Assembly (NCBI RefSeq): GCF_014651675.1
Contig: NZ_BMXI01000001.1
Location: 1 to 62,448 of the forward strand
DNA from: Roseibacillus persicicus
Lineage (GTDB): Bacteria > Verrucomicrobiota > Verrucomicrobiia > Verrucomicrobiales > Akkermansiaceae
Length of the DNA: 62,448 nt
Direction of reading: 5' to 3'
Shown: positions 25,101 to 30,445 of the stretch, piece after piece
Layout: every line of letters begins with the position of its first letter
How positions within the stretch are numbered: position 1 is the first letter of the stretch
The notes under the pieces: model-generated
Seen by the model: the letters and a program-made list of their open reading frames with translations, nothing else
Told to the model about the DNA's origin: nothing
Database searches by the model: none
Made by a program: the position numbers and the translations under genes

Positions 25101-25134
25101 AACCACAGCGACGAACCCGTCGCTGTGGTTTTTT
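25101..25134 (+). terminator. Rho-independent terminator after DUF5069
   Basis: A perfect 13-bp stem (25101-25113 with 25118-25130) with an AACC loop is followed by six T (25129-25134). It is 22 bases past the DUF5069 stop and separates the lar region from the protease operon. Confidence 0.93.
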
Positions 25135-25239: not shown

Positions 25240-28122
25240 ATGTTACGCCTTTCCCTCATCCTTGCAGCCCTCACGGCGGGCACCCAGATGTCGAACGCTC
25301 TCGTGATTCGACACGATACCCCGACGCTCAGCTACGAGAACTACGCCCGCGAATCCCAATTCAATGCCTCCACCGTCATCGTGCGGGCCACTGATGCGGA
25401 ATATGGCTTGGCGGGGGCCACTGCCATCGACAGCCGCTGGGGAGTACACGCGCGTCACACCCTACGGTCGGTAAGCAATCACTTGGAAGATGGCAACCAA
25501 GCCCGCCTGCGTGGCAGCAAATGGAACGGCTACAACAATCAAGGCATGGCCGCCACCAACGTTCTGCAGGTGATTCACTTCGACGACGATTTCACTCGCT
25601 TTGCCAATGCCATCGACATCGCTTTGGTGCAGGGAGGGGCAGCGTCCTCCACCCTGCGCGTGGCACCGCTTTACAACAGTTGGGATGAAGTGGGCAAAGT
25701 AGGTTCCGGGGCCAGCGCGGCGAACAACCGGCAGGATGGAAATGGAAACAGTCGCAAAACTGAAGCCCAGAACACCACAAACTCCGGCCGCTGGTATGAG
25801 ATCCGATGGGCCGGGAAGAACGACGTCAATCAGGTCAACACCCAGTCCTTGGGCTCTCCTGCCAACGCCCTTCTCAAGTGCGACCTCGATCACCCGACCG
25901 ACACTTCCAAAAGCGTCATGGGCGGCAACTTGGCCATCGACCTCGAGTATGGAAGCATGAACGGAGATAGCGGCTCCCCCATCTATTTGGAAAAAAACGG
26001 GCTGCATGGACAAGTCGCCGGAGTGCTCAGTGGTGGCTCGGGCAACGTCTATGGCTCGACCGTGGTCTATGTCCGCACGCGCCCCTATAAGACCTGGATC
26101 ACTGACACCATTCTCGCAAATCCCGACAACCGCTCCCTGATAATCGACAGTCTGGCGGACCAAGTCCTCGCAGTGGGCAGTGAACTCGCGTTGACCGCGA
26201 CCTCCGCCAGCACGGAGGGGCCGCTCACGCCCATTTACTCGTTCACCACCGCCCCCACCGGGGCCAGTATCGACTCCGCCACGGGTGCCATCAGCTGGGC
26301 TCCCCTTCCCACCCAATCCGCCGCGAGCCACGACTTTGTGGTCAAGGTTACCGAAGACGGCAGCTACGCCAATGCAAGCACCACCTCCTTTCAGGTGACG
26401 GTCACCGGCAGCAACCTCGTCGACTTCTGGAGTTGGTCCGCAGCACCTCCCAGCTGGGGTTCGCTCACGGTTTCGAGCGGGGCTCCCTATGGTCAAGCGA
26501 GCGCGGCTTTCCCTTATCTACAGGGTGACACTGGCAACACCCTTCATCAACAAATCACTGGCACTATCCCAGCGAATGCAAACGTGGTGATCACTTTCAA
26601 GGCCGCTGATTTCAATCAAACCTGGTCTCAGGGTGGCCCAATCGAATTCGGACTCCGCAGCGAAGCTCCCACGGCGGAAAACACGATGGAGCCCTTCCTC
26701 CACTCCGCCACCGCCGAGGTGCCGAATTACAATGGCGATGCCTTGGCCGACGGCTTGGGCAACACGGGCGGCAACGTCGACTACTCCCTCACCTTCTCAA
26801 CCGAAACCGAAATCGTGAACCCTTGGTTCGTGGTTCGAAAAAACGAAGACGGCGACCGCTTCGGCATCGATGATGTGGTCATCAGCTACTACTTCGACGA
26901 TGCCGACAGCGACGGACTTCCCGACCAGGAGGAAGAACTCCTTGGAACCAATCCCGACCTCGCCGATACCGATGGCGATGGATGTGACGATGGCTACGAG
27001 GTCGACGCCGGTCTCGATCCCCTTCTCGCCGACAGTGATGGTGACGGCTTTGGCGACCATTACGAAATCACGACCACCTTGTCCGATCCGCTCGACCCCA
27101 ACGATCCGGCATTGGAAAATCATCCCGGAATCGCAATCAACTTTGTCTCCGCCCAAGGCCCCGGTTCAAACCGACTAATGTCCCCCTTCGTCACCGCCGG
27201 GGTCGCCGAAGTCCAGCAACGCAATTGGAACCAGGCCGGCCCAGCCAACGGAGGCAATGGCGGTCTCGGACGGATTACGGCTCCGGTCGCGGGAACCCTC
27301 GTCGATAGCGAAGGGCTCACCACCGACGTTACTTTTTCCTTCACCGGCTCCAATACTTGGAGTGCTGCGAGCGAAGAGCTCACCCCCTACGGCCCCCTGA
27401 TGGCAGGCTATTTGGATTCCAATGCCAACAACGACGCCACCGTCACCCTGACCCAAATTCCCTATCCCCTCTATGAGGTCTATGTCTATGTGGGCTCCGA
27501 CAGAGACAACCGCACAGGCACCATCTCGGATGGCACCACGACCTACTCCCTCGCCACAGCCTCGGCCAGTCCCAATGAAGCGGGTAGCTTCGTTCAGACC
27601 GTCAATACCGGCACCGGAAACCCTCCTGCCAACTACGCGGTCTTTTCTAACAAAAGCTCCAGCTCCCTCACCCTGACCTACAGCAGAGGCAGTGGAAACG
27701 GCGGCATTCACGGCCTTCAGATCATACCCCTCGAGGTTCCCAATTCCTACGAAACCTGGGCGACGAACAATGGGCTGGACCCAAGTGCGGAGGATGGCCC
27801 TTACGCGGACTCCGATGGTGACGGCGAAGCGAATATTCTCGAGTTCGCACTCAACGCCAGCCCGCTGACGGGAGCCAGTCGCGTGGAGCTGACCCCAGTG
27901 AGGACCGAGTCCGAATTCTCCCTGCAATTTACTCAACTGAAAGCCGCAGACGATCTCACCATCACCGCCGAATGGTCTTCCGATCTGGAGAACTGGTCCG
28001 ACGAAGATGTCGTTCTCATCCCCGGCACCGAAGATGACACCACCCGCCAGATGGTGGCCCAAAAGCCCGTCGTCTCCGGAGAGACCGAAGGGTTCCTGCG
28101 GATTCGGGTAGTAGCCCCATGA
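25240..28122 (+). CDS. Secreted trypsin-like serine protease with Ig-like and thrombospondin-3-type repeats
   Basis: A 960-residue exported protein with signal peptide MLRLSLILAALTAGTQMSNA. Protease domain about 22-290: His73 in HARHT, Asp126 in AIDIAL and Ser244 in NGDSGSP form a chymotrypsin-type triad. An Ig-like (He_PIG) module follows (about 297-390), then a jelly-roll-like module (about 395-545). Calcium-binding TSP3-type Asp repeats come next (DSDGLPDQEEEL, DTDGDGCDDGYE, DSDGDGFGDHYE, about 550-605), a second beta module (about 620-830), and a tail with another DSDGDGEANILEF turn and a beta domain. First gene of a three-gene operon: its stop overlaps the next start (ATGA). Targets are unknown. 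Confidence 0.88.
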   Translation: MLRLSLILAALTAGTQMSNALVIRHDTPTLSYENYARESQFNASTVIVRATDAEYGLAGATAIDSRWGVHARHTLRSVSNHLEDGNQARLRGSKWNGYNNQGMAATNVLQVIHFDDDFTRFANAIDIALVQGGAASSTLRVAPLYNSWDEVGKVGSGASAANNRQDGNGNSRKTEAQNTTNSGRWYEIRWAGKNDVNQVNTQSLGSPANALLKCDLDHPTDTSKSVMGGNLAIDLEYGSMNGDSGSPIYLEKNGLHGQVAGVLSGGSGNVYGSTVVYVRTRPYKTWITDTILANPDNRSLIIDSLADQVLAVGSELALTATSASTEGPLTPIYSFTTAPTGASIDSATGAISWAPLPTQSAASHDFVVKVTEDGSYANASTTSFQVTVTGSNLVDFWSWSAAPPSWGSLTVSSGAPYGQASAAFPYLQGDTGNTLHQQITGTIPANANVVITFKAADFNQTWSQGGPIEFGLRSEAPTAENTMEPFLHSATAEVPNYNGDALADGLGNTGGNVDYSLTFSTETEIVNPWFVVRKNEDGDRFGIDDVVISYYFDDADSDGLPDQEEELLGTNPDLADTDGDGCDDGYEVDAGLDPLLADSDGDGFGDHYEITTTLSDPLDPNDPALENHPGIAINFVSAQGPGSNRLMSPFVTAGVAEVQQRNWNQAGPANGGNGGLGRITAPVAGTLVDSEGLTTDVTFSFTGSNTWSAASEELTPYGPLMAGYLDSNANNDATVTLTQIPYPLYEVYVYVGSDRDNRTGTISDGTTTYSLATASASPNEAGSFVQTVNTGTGNPPANYAVFSNKSSSSLTLTYSRGSGNGGIHGLQIIPLEVPNSYETWATNNGLDPSAEDGPYADSDGDGEANILEFALNASPLTGASRVELTPVRTESEFSLQFTQLKAADDLTITAEWSSDLENWSDEDVVLIPGTEDDTTRQMVAQKPVVSGETEGFLRIRVVAP

Positions 28123-29291
28123 AAAAACGCACGCTCATTGCCACAGCCTGGCTAACAGGTCTTGTCATCGCCTTCGAATTGGGTCGCGGCCTTCCGTTCG
28201 CGATCTCGGAGGAGACTCAATCCCTCTCCACAAAAAGCACTCCACCTGCCAATCGCGACCGCTCAACAAGCCCGGGACTCCAAGCCACGCGCTCGTTTGC
28301 AGAGTCTCTCCAAGCCTTGCAAAAATCGGAAGATTTTCAGGCCCTCTTCGGAGTGCTGCAGCCTTCGTTTGAAAATCCGGAAACGCATGACTCCCTGCTC
28401 CTTCTCGCCGATGAGTGGTCCGCCCGGCATCCGGAGGCAGCGAGTGAATGGCTTCACAAACAGGCTTTCGACGACCCGCGCAACCCCTTCCTCTTCGCCG
28501 CTCTCAGCCAATGGGCAGCCGCCGACGGGGATGCCGCTTTGAAGTGGCTGGTAGCAAACTATCCGAAAGCCTCTTCCACTCGGGACTACCTCTTTGCCTC
28601 CTTCATCCGAGGAGTTGCGCAGAAGGCCCCTGAACGAGCTTGGGCGATATTGAACAGTCTGCCTGCAGGGCCCGAACGCTCTGGCTCACTTGACTTTGTG
28701 CTCAACGGCTGGCTCAGCCAAGGCCTCCCGACCGCCCTTGGAAAACTTGAAAATCTGCCAGCGACGGATTCCCCCTTACAAATCGAAGCTACCCAAAATC
28801 TCCTCGCCAACTTGCCTCTTGCCGAACTGGCAGAAGCTCGCGAATGGGCAGCTCGGCTTTCTAACGACGAACAAAGAAAGTCCGCTCAAGTCGCCATCGC
28901 CGCCAACTGGGCTCAGCACAATCAAGGGGCGGCCTTGGAGTGGGCGGGCGAACTCTCAGACGAAATCCGCCCCCGGGCCTTGGCCGAGGTCGCGACCCGC
29001 TGGGCACGCGACTCTCCCAACGAGGCAGCCGACTGGCTGAAGCAGACCGGACCTGCCAGCGAACGGGATCTATCCAATCGCGCCATCAGTTGGAGTCTCG
29101 TCGGACTCGATCCCGAGGCAGCCTTCACCCAAATCGCCAGCATCACCAACCCCCTCTTGCGCGACGAAACCTTTGAGCAAGTCGGCCGTCTCTGGATGAG
29201 CAGTGCTCCTCAACAAGCTTATCAATATCTCCAGAACGAGAACCCCTTGCCCTCCGAGGTGAGAGAACTTCTTTTGCAAAGCTACCGATGA
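28119..29291 (+). CDS. Membrane-anchored 'WA'-repeat helical protein (first paralogue)
   Basis: A 390-residue protein coupled to the protease gene by ATGA. One N-terminal transmembrane anchor (TLIATAWLTGLVIAFELG). From about residue 75 the rest is tandem helical repeats of about 33-37 residues built around a Trp-Ala core: ALSQWAAADGDAALKWL, IAANWAQHNQGAALEWAGEL, VATRWARDSPNEAADWL. Such repeats are frequent in Verrucomicrobiota and have no assigned function; they should form a superhelix for protein binding. With the anchor inside the membrane and repeats in the periplasm, it may hold or regulate the protease (inference). Codon use matches the neighbours. Confidence 0.7.
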   Translation: MKKRTLIATAWLTGLVIAFELGRGLPFAISEETQSLSTKSTPPANRDRSTSPGLQATRSFAESLQALQKSEDFQALFGVLQPSFENPETHDSLLLLADEWSARHPEAASEWLHKQAFDDPRNPFLFAALSQWAAADGDAALKWLVANYPKASSTRDYLFASFIRGVAQKAPERAWAILNSLPAGPERSGSLDFVLNGWLSQGLPTALGKLENLPATDSPLQIEATQNLLANLPLAELAEAREWAARLSNDEQRKSAQVAIAANWAQHNQGAALEWAGELSDEIRPRALAEVATRWARDSPNEAADWLKQTGPASERDLSNRAISWSLVGLDPEAAFTQIASITNPLLRDETFEQVGRLWMSSAPQQAYQYLQNENPLPSEVRELLLQSYR

Positions 29292-30445
29292 ACACCCCCA
29301 GCCTCAGCCCCCCCATTCTCTCCGGAGTGGCTTTGGCCAGTCTGGTCGCAGCCTACTTCCTGGGCACTGCTTTTTCTAACAAGTCGCCCTCGAAGGCTGG
29401 AGCACCTGCGCAAGAACAACTCTCAGCACGCCCCACCTCTTCGCTCAATCGCAGTGTCTTTCGCACAGAGCGTAACCAGACGATCGCCGACCGAGTGTTA
29501 GCAACCATTGCCAAACTGGAAAGGCTCCGAACCCCTGCCGAATTTCGCCAGGCCTTGGGCGAGATTCTGAGCTACGCCGATAAGACCGAAAAAGAACGGC
29601 TCGTCTCGCTGCTCTTCGCTTCTTGGCTGGATCGGGATCCCGAGGCCGCCTTTGCGGAGGCGCGACGGGTAGAGTTCCTCCGCTACCACGCTGGGCGCAC
29701 GAGTCGCAGCTTTTCACAGTGGGCGGAAACCAACCCGATCGCGGCCGCCAGTCTTCTCGAGCAAACCCTCGATGGCCGCCAATTGACCACCGACCCGCGC
29801 CCTCCCTATCTCGATGGAGTCGATCCGCCGGAGTTTCTTCTTTCTCTCGTCAACGGTCTCGCGCAAACCGATCCCCGCCTCGCCGCCGACACCTTGGCTG
29901 CCGCTCAATCGAGTCCCATACAAGTCCATGCCCTCGAAGTGCTCATGCAGACTTGGTTTCCCGCGGACAGTGAGGAAGTCTTTGCTTGGACATCCTCGCT
30001 TTCCAATCCGGAAGTCCGCTCGCAAAGCCTTGCCATCGTCGCAACCAAGGCGGGACAACTCGACGACCCATCCGCGGGGCTAAGCTGGGCGCAGAACCTG
30101 AAGGATTCCGGAGAACAAACCCTCGCGCTGGGAAACCTCGTCAGCCAATGGAGCCAGCGCTATTCGCAAGACGCTTTCAACTGGATCGCAGCGCTGTCAG
30201 ACAGCAACTTGAAGTTCCAGCTCATGCCTCCGGCGCTCCGACAGCTCACCCTCATCAATCCCGGAGCGGCGGCAGACTGGCTCAATCAATACGAGGCCTC
30301 CCCGCAGATGGATGCCAGCATCGCAGCCTATGTGAAGTCGATTCAAACCGTGAATCCCGAGGCCGCCAGAGGGAGCGCCAGCGCCATCACCGACCCCCAT
30401 TTGCGAGAGCAAATTCTGCAGGAACTCGCGCAAGCCGCACCTTAG
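29288..30445 (+). CDS. Membrane-anchored 'WA'-repeat helical protein (second paralogue)
   Basis: A 385-residue protein, again ATGA-coupled. The N-terminal helix (ILSGVALASLVAAYFLG) is followed by a Ser/Pro-rich linker and repeats with the same core as the preceding gene: FASWLDRDPEAAFAEA, FSQWAETNPIAAASLLE, LVSQWSQRYSQDAFNWI, AADWLNQYEASPQMD. Overall order, anchor and length match its neighbour, so the two arose by tandem duplication, now much diverged. Last gene of the operon; cobA-hemD starts 50 bases later. Confidence 0.7.
   Translation: MNTPSLSPPILSGVALASLVAAYFLGTAFSNKSPSKAGAPAQEQLSARPTSSLNRSVFRTERNQTIADRVLATIAKLERLRTPAEFRQALGEILSYADKTEKERLVSLLFASWLDRDPEAAFAEARRVEFLRYHAGRTSRSFSQWAETNPIAAASLLEQTLDGRQLTTDPRPPYLDGVDPPEFLLSLVNGLAQTDPRLAADTLAAAQSSPIQVHALEVLMQTWFPADSEEVFAWTSSLSNPEVRSQSLAIVATKAGQLDDPSAGLSWAQNLKDSGEQTLALGNLVSQWSQRYSQDAFNWIAALSDSNLKFQLMPPALRQLTLINPGAAADWLNQYEASPQMDASIAAYVKSIQTVNPEAARGSASAITDPHLREQILQELAQAAP

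Follow-up and report, generated by a model that had tools for sequence, protein, structure and literature searches.

A conserved gene trio of an exported S1-family protease and two membrane-anchored helical-repeat proteins in Akkermansiaceae

Why is the gene of an exported protease joined to two genes for membrane-anchored repeat proteins, and do the three products belong together? The question is raised by a locus of Roseibacillus persicicus (Verrucomicrobiota, Akkermansiaceae) in a stretch of 62,448 nucleotides from contig NZ_BMXI01000001.1, the whole of which is called the window here. The two repeat proteins, WA1 and WA2, carry Trp-Ala (WA) helical repeats. The three open reading frames (ORFs) and their junctions were read in the sequence as follows.

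25240..28122, + strand: protease gene, ORF of 960 amino acids (aa)
28119..29291, + strand: WA1 gene, ORF of 390 aa; helix 2-23, linker ~24-51 and alpha-solenoid 52-389 in an AlphaFold2 model with a predicted local distance difference test score (pLDDT) of 91.6
29288..30445, + strand: WA2 gene, ORF of 385 aa; paralogue of WA1 with an N-terminal hydrophobic segment and repeats
28119..28122, + strand: start/stop overlap ATGA of protease and WA1
29288..29291, + strand: start/stop overlap ATGA of WA1 and WA2

A total of 260 genomes of the family Akkermansiaceae were surveyed. Orthologues of the protease were detected in five of them, those of WA2 in the same five, and WA1 was present in all five. 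These genomes were the window's own, JB023 (same genus), Haloferula rosea, JB025 and G590, and they represent four of the 16 genera. In 5/5 genomes, WA1 and WA2 followed directly 3' of the protease, in one order and on one strand; the start of the G590 protease lies on a separate contig. The strict co-occurrence and the conserved gene order support a functional link between the three proteins beyond coupling, on which the preliminary description of the locus had based it. An even draw of 384 genomes of the class recovered three of the five module genomes and one weak distant S1 match (G349, L079), which had no WA repeat gene in its 1.5-kb flanks. A contig scan with two short exact peptide patterns gave at least three loci.

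Overlap of the genes was the rule. Four-base overlaps occurred at 8 of the 10 module junctions of the five genomes, and a 1-base overlap at another. Both junctions read ATGA in the window, as had been described, and in H. rosea; G590 displayed ATGA between protease and WA1 and GTGA between WA1 and WA2, and JB025 the 1-base overlap followed by a 4-base overlap. Overlaps of exactly four bases were found in 3 of the 26 same-strand adjacent ORF pairs of the window, two of them being the module junctions. Such an overlap suggests translational coupling only, and production of the three proteins in a fixed ratio, which had been read from it, does not follow.

The flanks of the module mostly differed among the five loci. 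The window and H. rosea loci had no gene in the corresponding place in common with the other loci, and the window and JB023 flanks showed only a weak protein-kinase match (24% identity) on opposite sides of the module. Three genes of the JB023 flanks recurred beside the G590 module (74-79% identity) and one beside that of JB025 (30%), in altered arrangement. In a WA tree of 68 rows, the Shimodaira-Hasegawa-like approximate likelihood ratio test (SH-aLRT) gave 99 for the WA1 clade, 100 for the WA2 clade and 94 for both together. This tree was calculated by a quick method, with long branches among the non-module rows, of which 6 of 64 were dropped for a length above 520 aa. Since the two clades group together, a single founding duplication, followed by joint inheritance as a unit, is the simplest reading. 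Horizontal transfer of the module was rejected as a firm claim: the gene trees within the module were weakly resolved and disagreed weakly, and the concatenated tree paired the window with JB023, of the same genus (bootstrap 78).

One further feature was read ahead of the protease gene.

25101..25130, + strand: terminator-like hairpin of 13 pairs with a T tail

Because this hairpin separates the upstream gene from the module, it suggests that the module begins its own transcript. The region contained six terminator-like sites against a mean of 6.4 after shuffling, thus no excess, and this hairpin had the longest stem among them. A sigma-70 promoter scan of the region gave 0 sites.

The product of the first gene is, as judged by its residues and motifs, an exported protease of the S1 (chymotrypsin-type) family. 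The relevant positions are listed below.

25297..26133, + strand: catalytic segment ALVIRHD...PDNR, its start coinciding with the probable signal peptidase site (A20/L21)
25456-25458, + strand: catalytic His73 (motif ARHT)
25615-25617, + strand: catalytic Asp126 (motif AIDIAL)
25969-25971, + strand: catalytic Ser244 (motif GDSGSP)

His73, Asp126 and Ser244 were invariant in the window copy and three fully aligned orthologues (4 copies), and in the fifth copy (G590, two contig pieces) ARHT, VIDIAL and GDSGSP were all present. The Pfam family Trypsin (PF00089) matched the catalytic domain alone with 23.1 bits (E 7.5e-5) and, in the search of the own genome, with 22.4 bits, both above the cut-off of 20.6; with the full-length protein the score was 19.4 bits, just under it. 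The export, family and triad proposed for this protein are thus borne out. The term 'trypsin-like' holds as a family label and fails for specificity. Gly238, not Asp, occupies the specificity-pocket position as counted from GDSG in an alignment made without a structure. We take this position to be residue 189 in chymotrypsin numbering, at which trypsin specificity goes with Asp.

The protease was divided into a signal peptide (~1-20), the catalytic domain (~21-297), beta domains (~298-550), TSP3-like calcium repeats (~553-624), a further beta domain (~630-833) and a C-terminal domain (834-960), with limits taken partly from reading of the sequence and from partial matches within the own genome. 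Cleavage at A20/L21 was deduced from the sequence and from the onset of conservation in four copies. As the catalytic domain starts at this likely signal peptidase site, no propeptide is seen, and the protease seems to be made without an N-terminal one. The catalytic domain contains a single cysteine; a tail of ~660 residues, made up of beta domains and calcium-type repeats, follows it. The calcium-type repeats of the preliminary description can be read as three D-rich TSP3-type blocks at ~553-624, with weak profile support (PF18884, 14.7 bits against a cut-off of 25); partial matches to MtsD and CglD were far under the cut-off. The last ~125 residues of the protease (window 27739-28119) recur at ~12 places in the own genome, and in 4/4 checked places (L021, L023, L029, L031) they form the extreme C-terminus of a large protein. 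This end is likely a sorting or anchoring domain, which no family search named.

WA1 and WA2 were 27% identical (E 5.5e-9) and hence are paralogues, each with one predicted hydrophobic N-terminal segment that only a few residues precede. The AlphaFold2 model of WA1, built with 53 relatives, reached a mean pLDDT of 91.6, with helix 2-23 followed by a low-confidence linker (~24-51) and helical hairpins (52-389). WA1 is thus confidently modelled as a tethered alpha-solenoid, and WA2 would have the same fold because it is a paralogue. Two diverged paralogues with one membrane helix each and helical repeats had been described, and this description agrees with the present analysis. WA1 and WA2 gave no Pfam or NCBIfam family above cut-off. 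The structural neighbours of WA1 were generic solenoids; the best Foldseek match had E 3.7e-3, and the best VIA match had Z 11.8, in the range given for common helical arrangements, with a root-mean-square deviation of 18.3 over 343 residues. Membership of WA1 in a named solenoid family, among those in the Foldseek and VIA result lists, was rejected, since Foldseek gave no match at E <= 0.001 and the VIA Z peaked at 11.8. The most conserved patch was WA2 329-348 (ADWLNQYEASPQMDASIAAY), with 14 of 20 positions invariant in five orthologues, a value matched by 2 of 5000 shuffles. Weaker conserved patches were found at WA1 121-140, which 63 of 5000 shuffles reach, and at WA1 347-366. All three are candidate contact sites.

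Some genes outside the module, in which WA repeats are fused to sigma factors, bear on the location of these repeats.

L119:5955-7904, - strand: sigma-70-WA fusion ORF (G061)
L135:4843-6909, + strand: sigma-70-WA fusion ORF (G061)
L198:1099-3048, + strand: sigma-70-WA fusion ORF (G009)

Each is a single ORF with sigma-70 regions 2 and 4, a hydrophobic stretch and then WA repeats; region 2 of L135 was just under the cut-off. The sigma parts are read as extracytoplasmic function (ECF) type from their two-region layout, and the fusion proteins appear to be sigma factors held at the membrane and equipped with a WA sensor domain. An extracytoplasmic position of WA solenoids is suggested by this arrangement, in which the hydrophobic stretch stands between the sigma part and the repeats. 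In L109 (4708-6703, + strand), an ECF sigma gene (PF07638) is located 22 bases upstream of a WA gene. WA genes were also found beside genes similar to S10 carboxypeptidases.

L034:3291-6196, - strand: WA gene, then S10-like gene on the same strand
L096:1-2503, + strand: WA gene, then S10-like gene on the same strand
L130:4659-6448, + strand: WA gene, then S10-like gene on the same strand

In these three genera (own contig C4, G028 and G022; a raw count), the S10-like gene lay directly 3' of the WA gene, with gaps of 122, 52 and 131 bases. The S10-like genes had signal-peptide-like starts, and their products displayed 53-74% mutual identity over the main aligned parts. Two matched PF00450, and the third, cut by a contig end, was named by similarity.

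The WA family is much wider than the module. Matches to WA1 at E <= 1e-5 were detected in 33 of 58 relatives, and matches to a family profile at E <= 1e-20 in 59 of 288 genomes of the phylum. When 54 WA members were compared with Pfam and NCBIfam, no family matched more than three of them and none clearly; HEAT_2 gave weak matches in three of the 54 (best E 6e-4), none for WA1. The alignment used comprised 54 of 72 called WA rows, the 18 omitted rows being longer than 500 aa (seven) or near-copies, cut, long or very diverged; the WA1 row of JB025 was the open piece after an in-frame stop. No description of the family was found in the literature searched (titles and abstract openings), in Pfam or in NCBIfam. 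The N-terminal helices of WA proteins often end in a G-R/K pair.

Several WA loci have other partners or other sizes. In the own genome, L036 (4775-7449, - strand) contains a gene pair with a 4-base overlap, both very diverged and WA-like (one only at E 4.6e-9), which adjoins MoxR/DUF58-like genes, named by reading, and has no protease beside it. In three genomes of one genus (L084, L101, L122), the WA gene is directly followed 3' by a lipoprotein gene; this lipoprotein is presumably peptide methionine sulfoxide reductase-like, as named from its GGGCYWC motif. Long WA arrays of ~645-855 aa occur in other Verrucomicrobiota (L181, L182, L184-L186, L188-L196, L199), and that of L188 matched the ELYS nuclear-pore model with 40.9 bits against a cut-off of 28.8.

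Two sources (PMC4713064; PMC13381987) describe membrane-anchored chaperones whose genes adjoin that of a secreted protease or lipase and on which the secretion of this enzyme depends. The Lif foldases (LipB/LipH) are encoded next to an exported enzyme and have an N-terminal anchor, a linker and a periplasmic client-binding domain (PMC13381987; PMC4713064). The WA proteins resemble them in gene position, in the predicted anchor and, for WA1, in the modelled linker, and their solenoids would correspond to the client-binding domain. The client is a lipase for Lif and would be the protease here. Lif foldases are mostly helical. WA1 differs in being a long repeat solenoid and one of two paralogues, and a need of the protease for it is putative; Pfam and NCBIfam searches at E <= 1 linked neither WA1 nor WA2 to a lipase chaperone family. 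The gene of the secreted Acinetobacter protease CpaA is directly followed by that of CpaB, which has one N-terminal helix and a periplasmic remainder and is needed for secretion (PMC4713064). The module likewise has a secreted-protease gene directly followed by the gene of a protein with one predicted N-terminal helix. In contrast, CpaA is given there as a metallopeptidase and the module protease is of the S1 family, and CpaB is a single chaperone reported with an SRPBCC domain (PMC4713064), as against two WA proteins. No SRPBCC-type match at E <= 1 was obtained for WA1 or WA2 in Pfam or NCBIfam, and the WA1 model is all helical.

The same source lists traits of membrane-bound chaperones of the type II secretion system (PMC4713064). 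The N-terminal transmembrane helix is predicted in WA1 (model helix 2-23) and by the hydrophobic segments of WA1 and WA2. Location beside the effector gene is seen in 5/5 genomes, with overlap in the window; co-regulation would follow from this layout, and the protease is a putative type II effector. A periplasmic C-terminal part is suggested for WA proteins by the sigma-WA fusions. Compared with S1 secreted serine proteases, the module protease has the same His-Asp-Ser order, motifs and PF00089 match of the catalytic domain; it differs in the lack of Asp at the trypsin specificity position, the single catalytic-domain cysteine, the ~660-residue tail and the absence of a visible propeptide. 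WA1 resembles HEAT-, PPR- and TPR-type alpha-solenoids in its stacked helical hairpins, with no clear family match. By analogy, the module would work most like the membrane-bound secretion chaperones (Lif/LipH, CpaB), differing from them in fold and number.

We therefore propose, with somewhat less than even confidence, that WA1 and WA2, themselves held by the membrane, escort or restrain the protease in the periplasm and that the three genes form an export unit. The protease would cross the inner membrane and shed its signal peptide and, seemingly lacking a propeptide, would have no N-terminal aid for folding or silencing. Translated next from a shared message, WA1 and WA2 would keep their anchors in the inner membrane and extend their alpha-solenoids into the periplasm. 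There, they may bind the freshly exported protease, or the beta domains of its tail, and hold it, fold it or keep it in check. The protease would then be released to the outer-membrane step, perhaps through type II-like machinery. The periplasmic location of the solenoids is supported indirectly; co-transcription, binding, escort or restraint, and the export route are what we infer.

A number of observations weigh against this proposal. For 64 WA genes outside the module, the neighbours up to two ORFs away were examined, and none of these 230 distinct ORFs had the motif GDSG.P. WA repeats are therefore not general partners of S1 proteases, and a general WA-protease rule was rejected. The conserved association expected from the preliminary description therefore stands for the clade of the five genomes and fails for the family at large, in which WA genes occur without it. 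The survey comprised 60 regions, namely the best-scoring WA1 matches down to E 8.9e-11 in other genomes and apart from the module, minus G013:C108, to which the WA loci of the own genome were added. In seven of the 60 (L104, L105, L111, L112, L128, L130, L137), the ORF caller missed the WA gene, and hence their neighbours are not among the 230. Two S1-like ORFs were present in the surveyed loci outside the module, namely a Trypsin_2 protein in L091, on the opposite strand and two small ORFs away from WA, and one in L123 that is S1-like by its GDSGSA motif only; three more GDSG matches were read as chance. In H. rosea, ~2 kb separate an HtrA-like S1 protease from a WA gene; the two are on opposite strands, with two small ORFs between them. 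The own genome contains 10 S1-family matches and six WA places outside the module; no other S1 match has a WA gene within 100 kb on its contig, and seven are on contigs without a listed WA gene.

The module itself adds further points of this kind. In JB023, a 32-base gap without overlap separates protease and WA1, followed by a 4-base overlap of WA1 and WA2, and the WA1 gene of JB025 (L074:9794-10963, + strand) has one in-frame stop, being a pseudogene or an assembly error. The full-length protease model, built on four aligned sequences, reached a pLDDT of 43, too poor for a fold. Among the sigma fusions, L198 has the clearest hydrophobic stretch, and that of L119 and L135 is ill-defined (mean hydropathy <= ~1.5). 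GspD-like matches were detected in all five module genomes, none above the curated cut-off, which the same profile passed in 2 of 14 control genomes; for this reason, the type II route is possible only. Finally, the orthologues of WA1 and WA2 were 36-54% identical, less than the catalytic domain, which was 67% and 81% identical to the window copy in two genomes, 79% in JB025 and 64% in G590 (138 residues at hand); a rigid interface by itself would not lead one to expect this.

This last difference also bears on another explanation, namely that WA1 and WA2, held at the membrane, inhibit the protease as immunity proteins and so shield the envelope of the producer, giving no help in folding or export. 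WA proteins that diverge faster than the catalytic domain would fit a tolerant handler or tail-binding better than a rigid inhibitor. No inhibitor family was matched in Pfam or NCBIfam, and the surveyed relatives of WA1 and WA2 had no S1 protease as neighbour. We regard inhibition as unlikely, although no propeptide is seen ahead of the catalytic domain, the WA genes overlap directly after the protease gene and two solenoids could cap one enzyme. It is rather improbable that the trio is a signalling unit, in which the protease cleaves WA1 and WA2 within their linkers or solenoids, or the solenoids sense the products of the protease as sigma-fused WA domains presumably sense conditions outside the cytoplasm. 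The three sigma-WA fusions, the ECF sigma gene upstream of the L109 WA gene and the low-confidence linker of WA1 agree with such a unit; however, only a few residues, and no additional domain, stand ahead of the helix in WA1 and WA2, and none of the three module genes encodes a sigma or anti-sigma factor.

WA1 and WA2 might also belong to a family of periplasmic scaffolds that dock on a common inner-membrane machine, the protease being one client of many. The size of the family, with profile matches at E <= 1e-20 in 59 of 288 genomes of the phylum, the frequent G-R/K ends of the helices and the varied neighbours of WA genes are in accordance with a scaffold. The separate clades of WA1 and WA2 and the restriction of WA2 orthologues to genomes with the protease are not, and we give this explanation still less credence. 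The lowest probability is assigned to the absence of any functional relation, the trio being held together by descent and transcription only. Only five genomes have the module, and vertical inheritance would fit its concatenated tree, in which the window and JB023 stand apart from the other three with a bootstrap of 78; yet the trio was kept together in 5/5 loci of four genera while the flanks changed, with a 4-base overlap at 8/10 junctions and a 1-base overlap at another.

Escort or restraint of the protease by WA1 and WA2 may be part of a wider pattern. The WA proteins could be an uncatalogued family of Verrucomicrobiota, consisting of periplasmic alpha-solenoids tethered to the inner membrane that handle exported proteins in a client-specific manner, with one branch for the S1 protease (an obligatory WA1-WA2 pair), one for S10 peptidases and one of sigma fusions reporting the state of the client to transcription; we consider this extension somewhat unlikely. 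If WA1 and WA2 do handle the protease, the few membrane-bound chaperones dedicated to secretion (Lif, CpaB) would be joined by a two-component class of solenoid type, and the large WA family would gain its first testable function. The sigma-WA fusions would offer a second, independent route to what WA solenoids bind.

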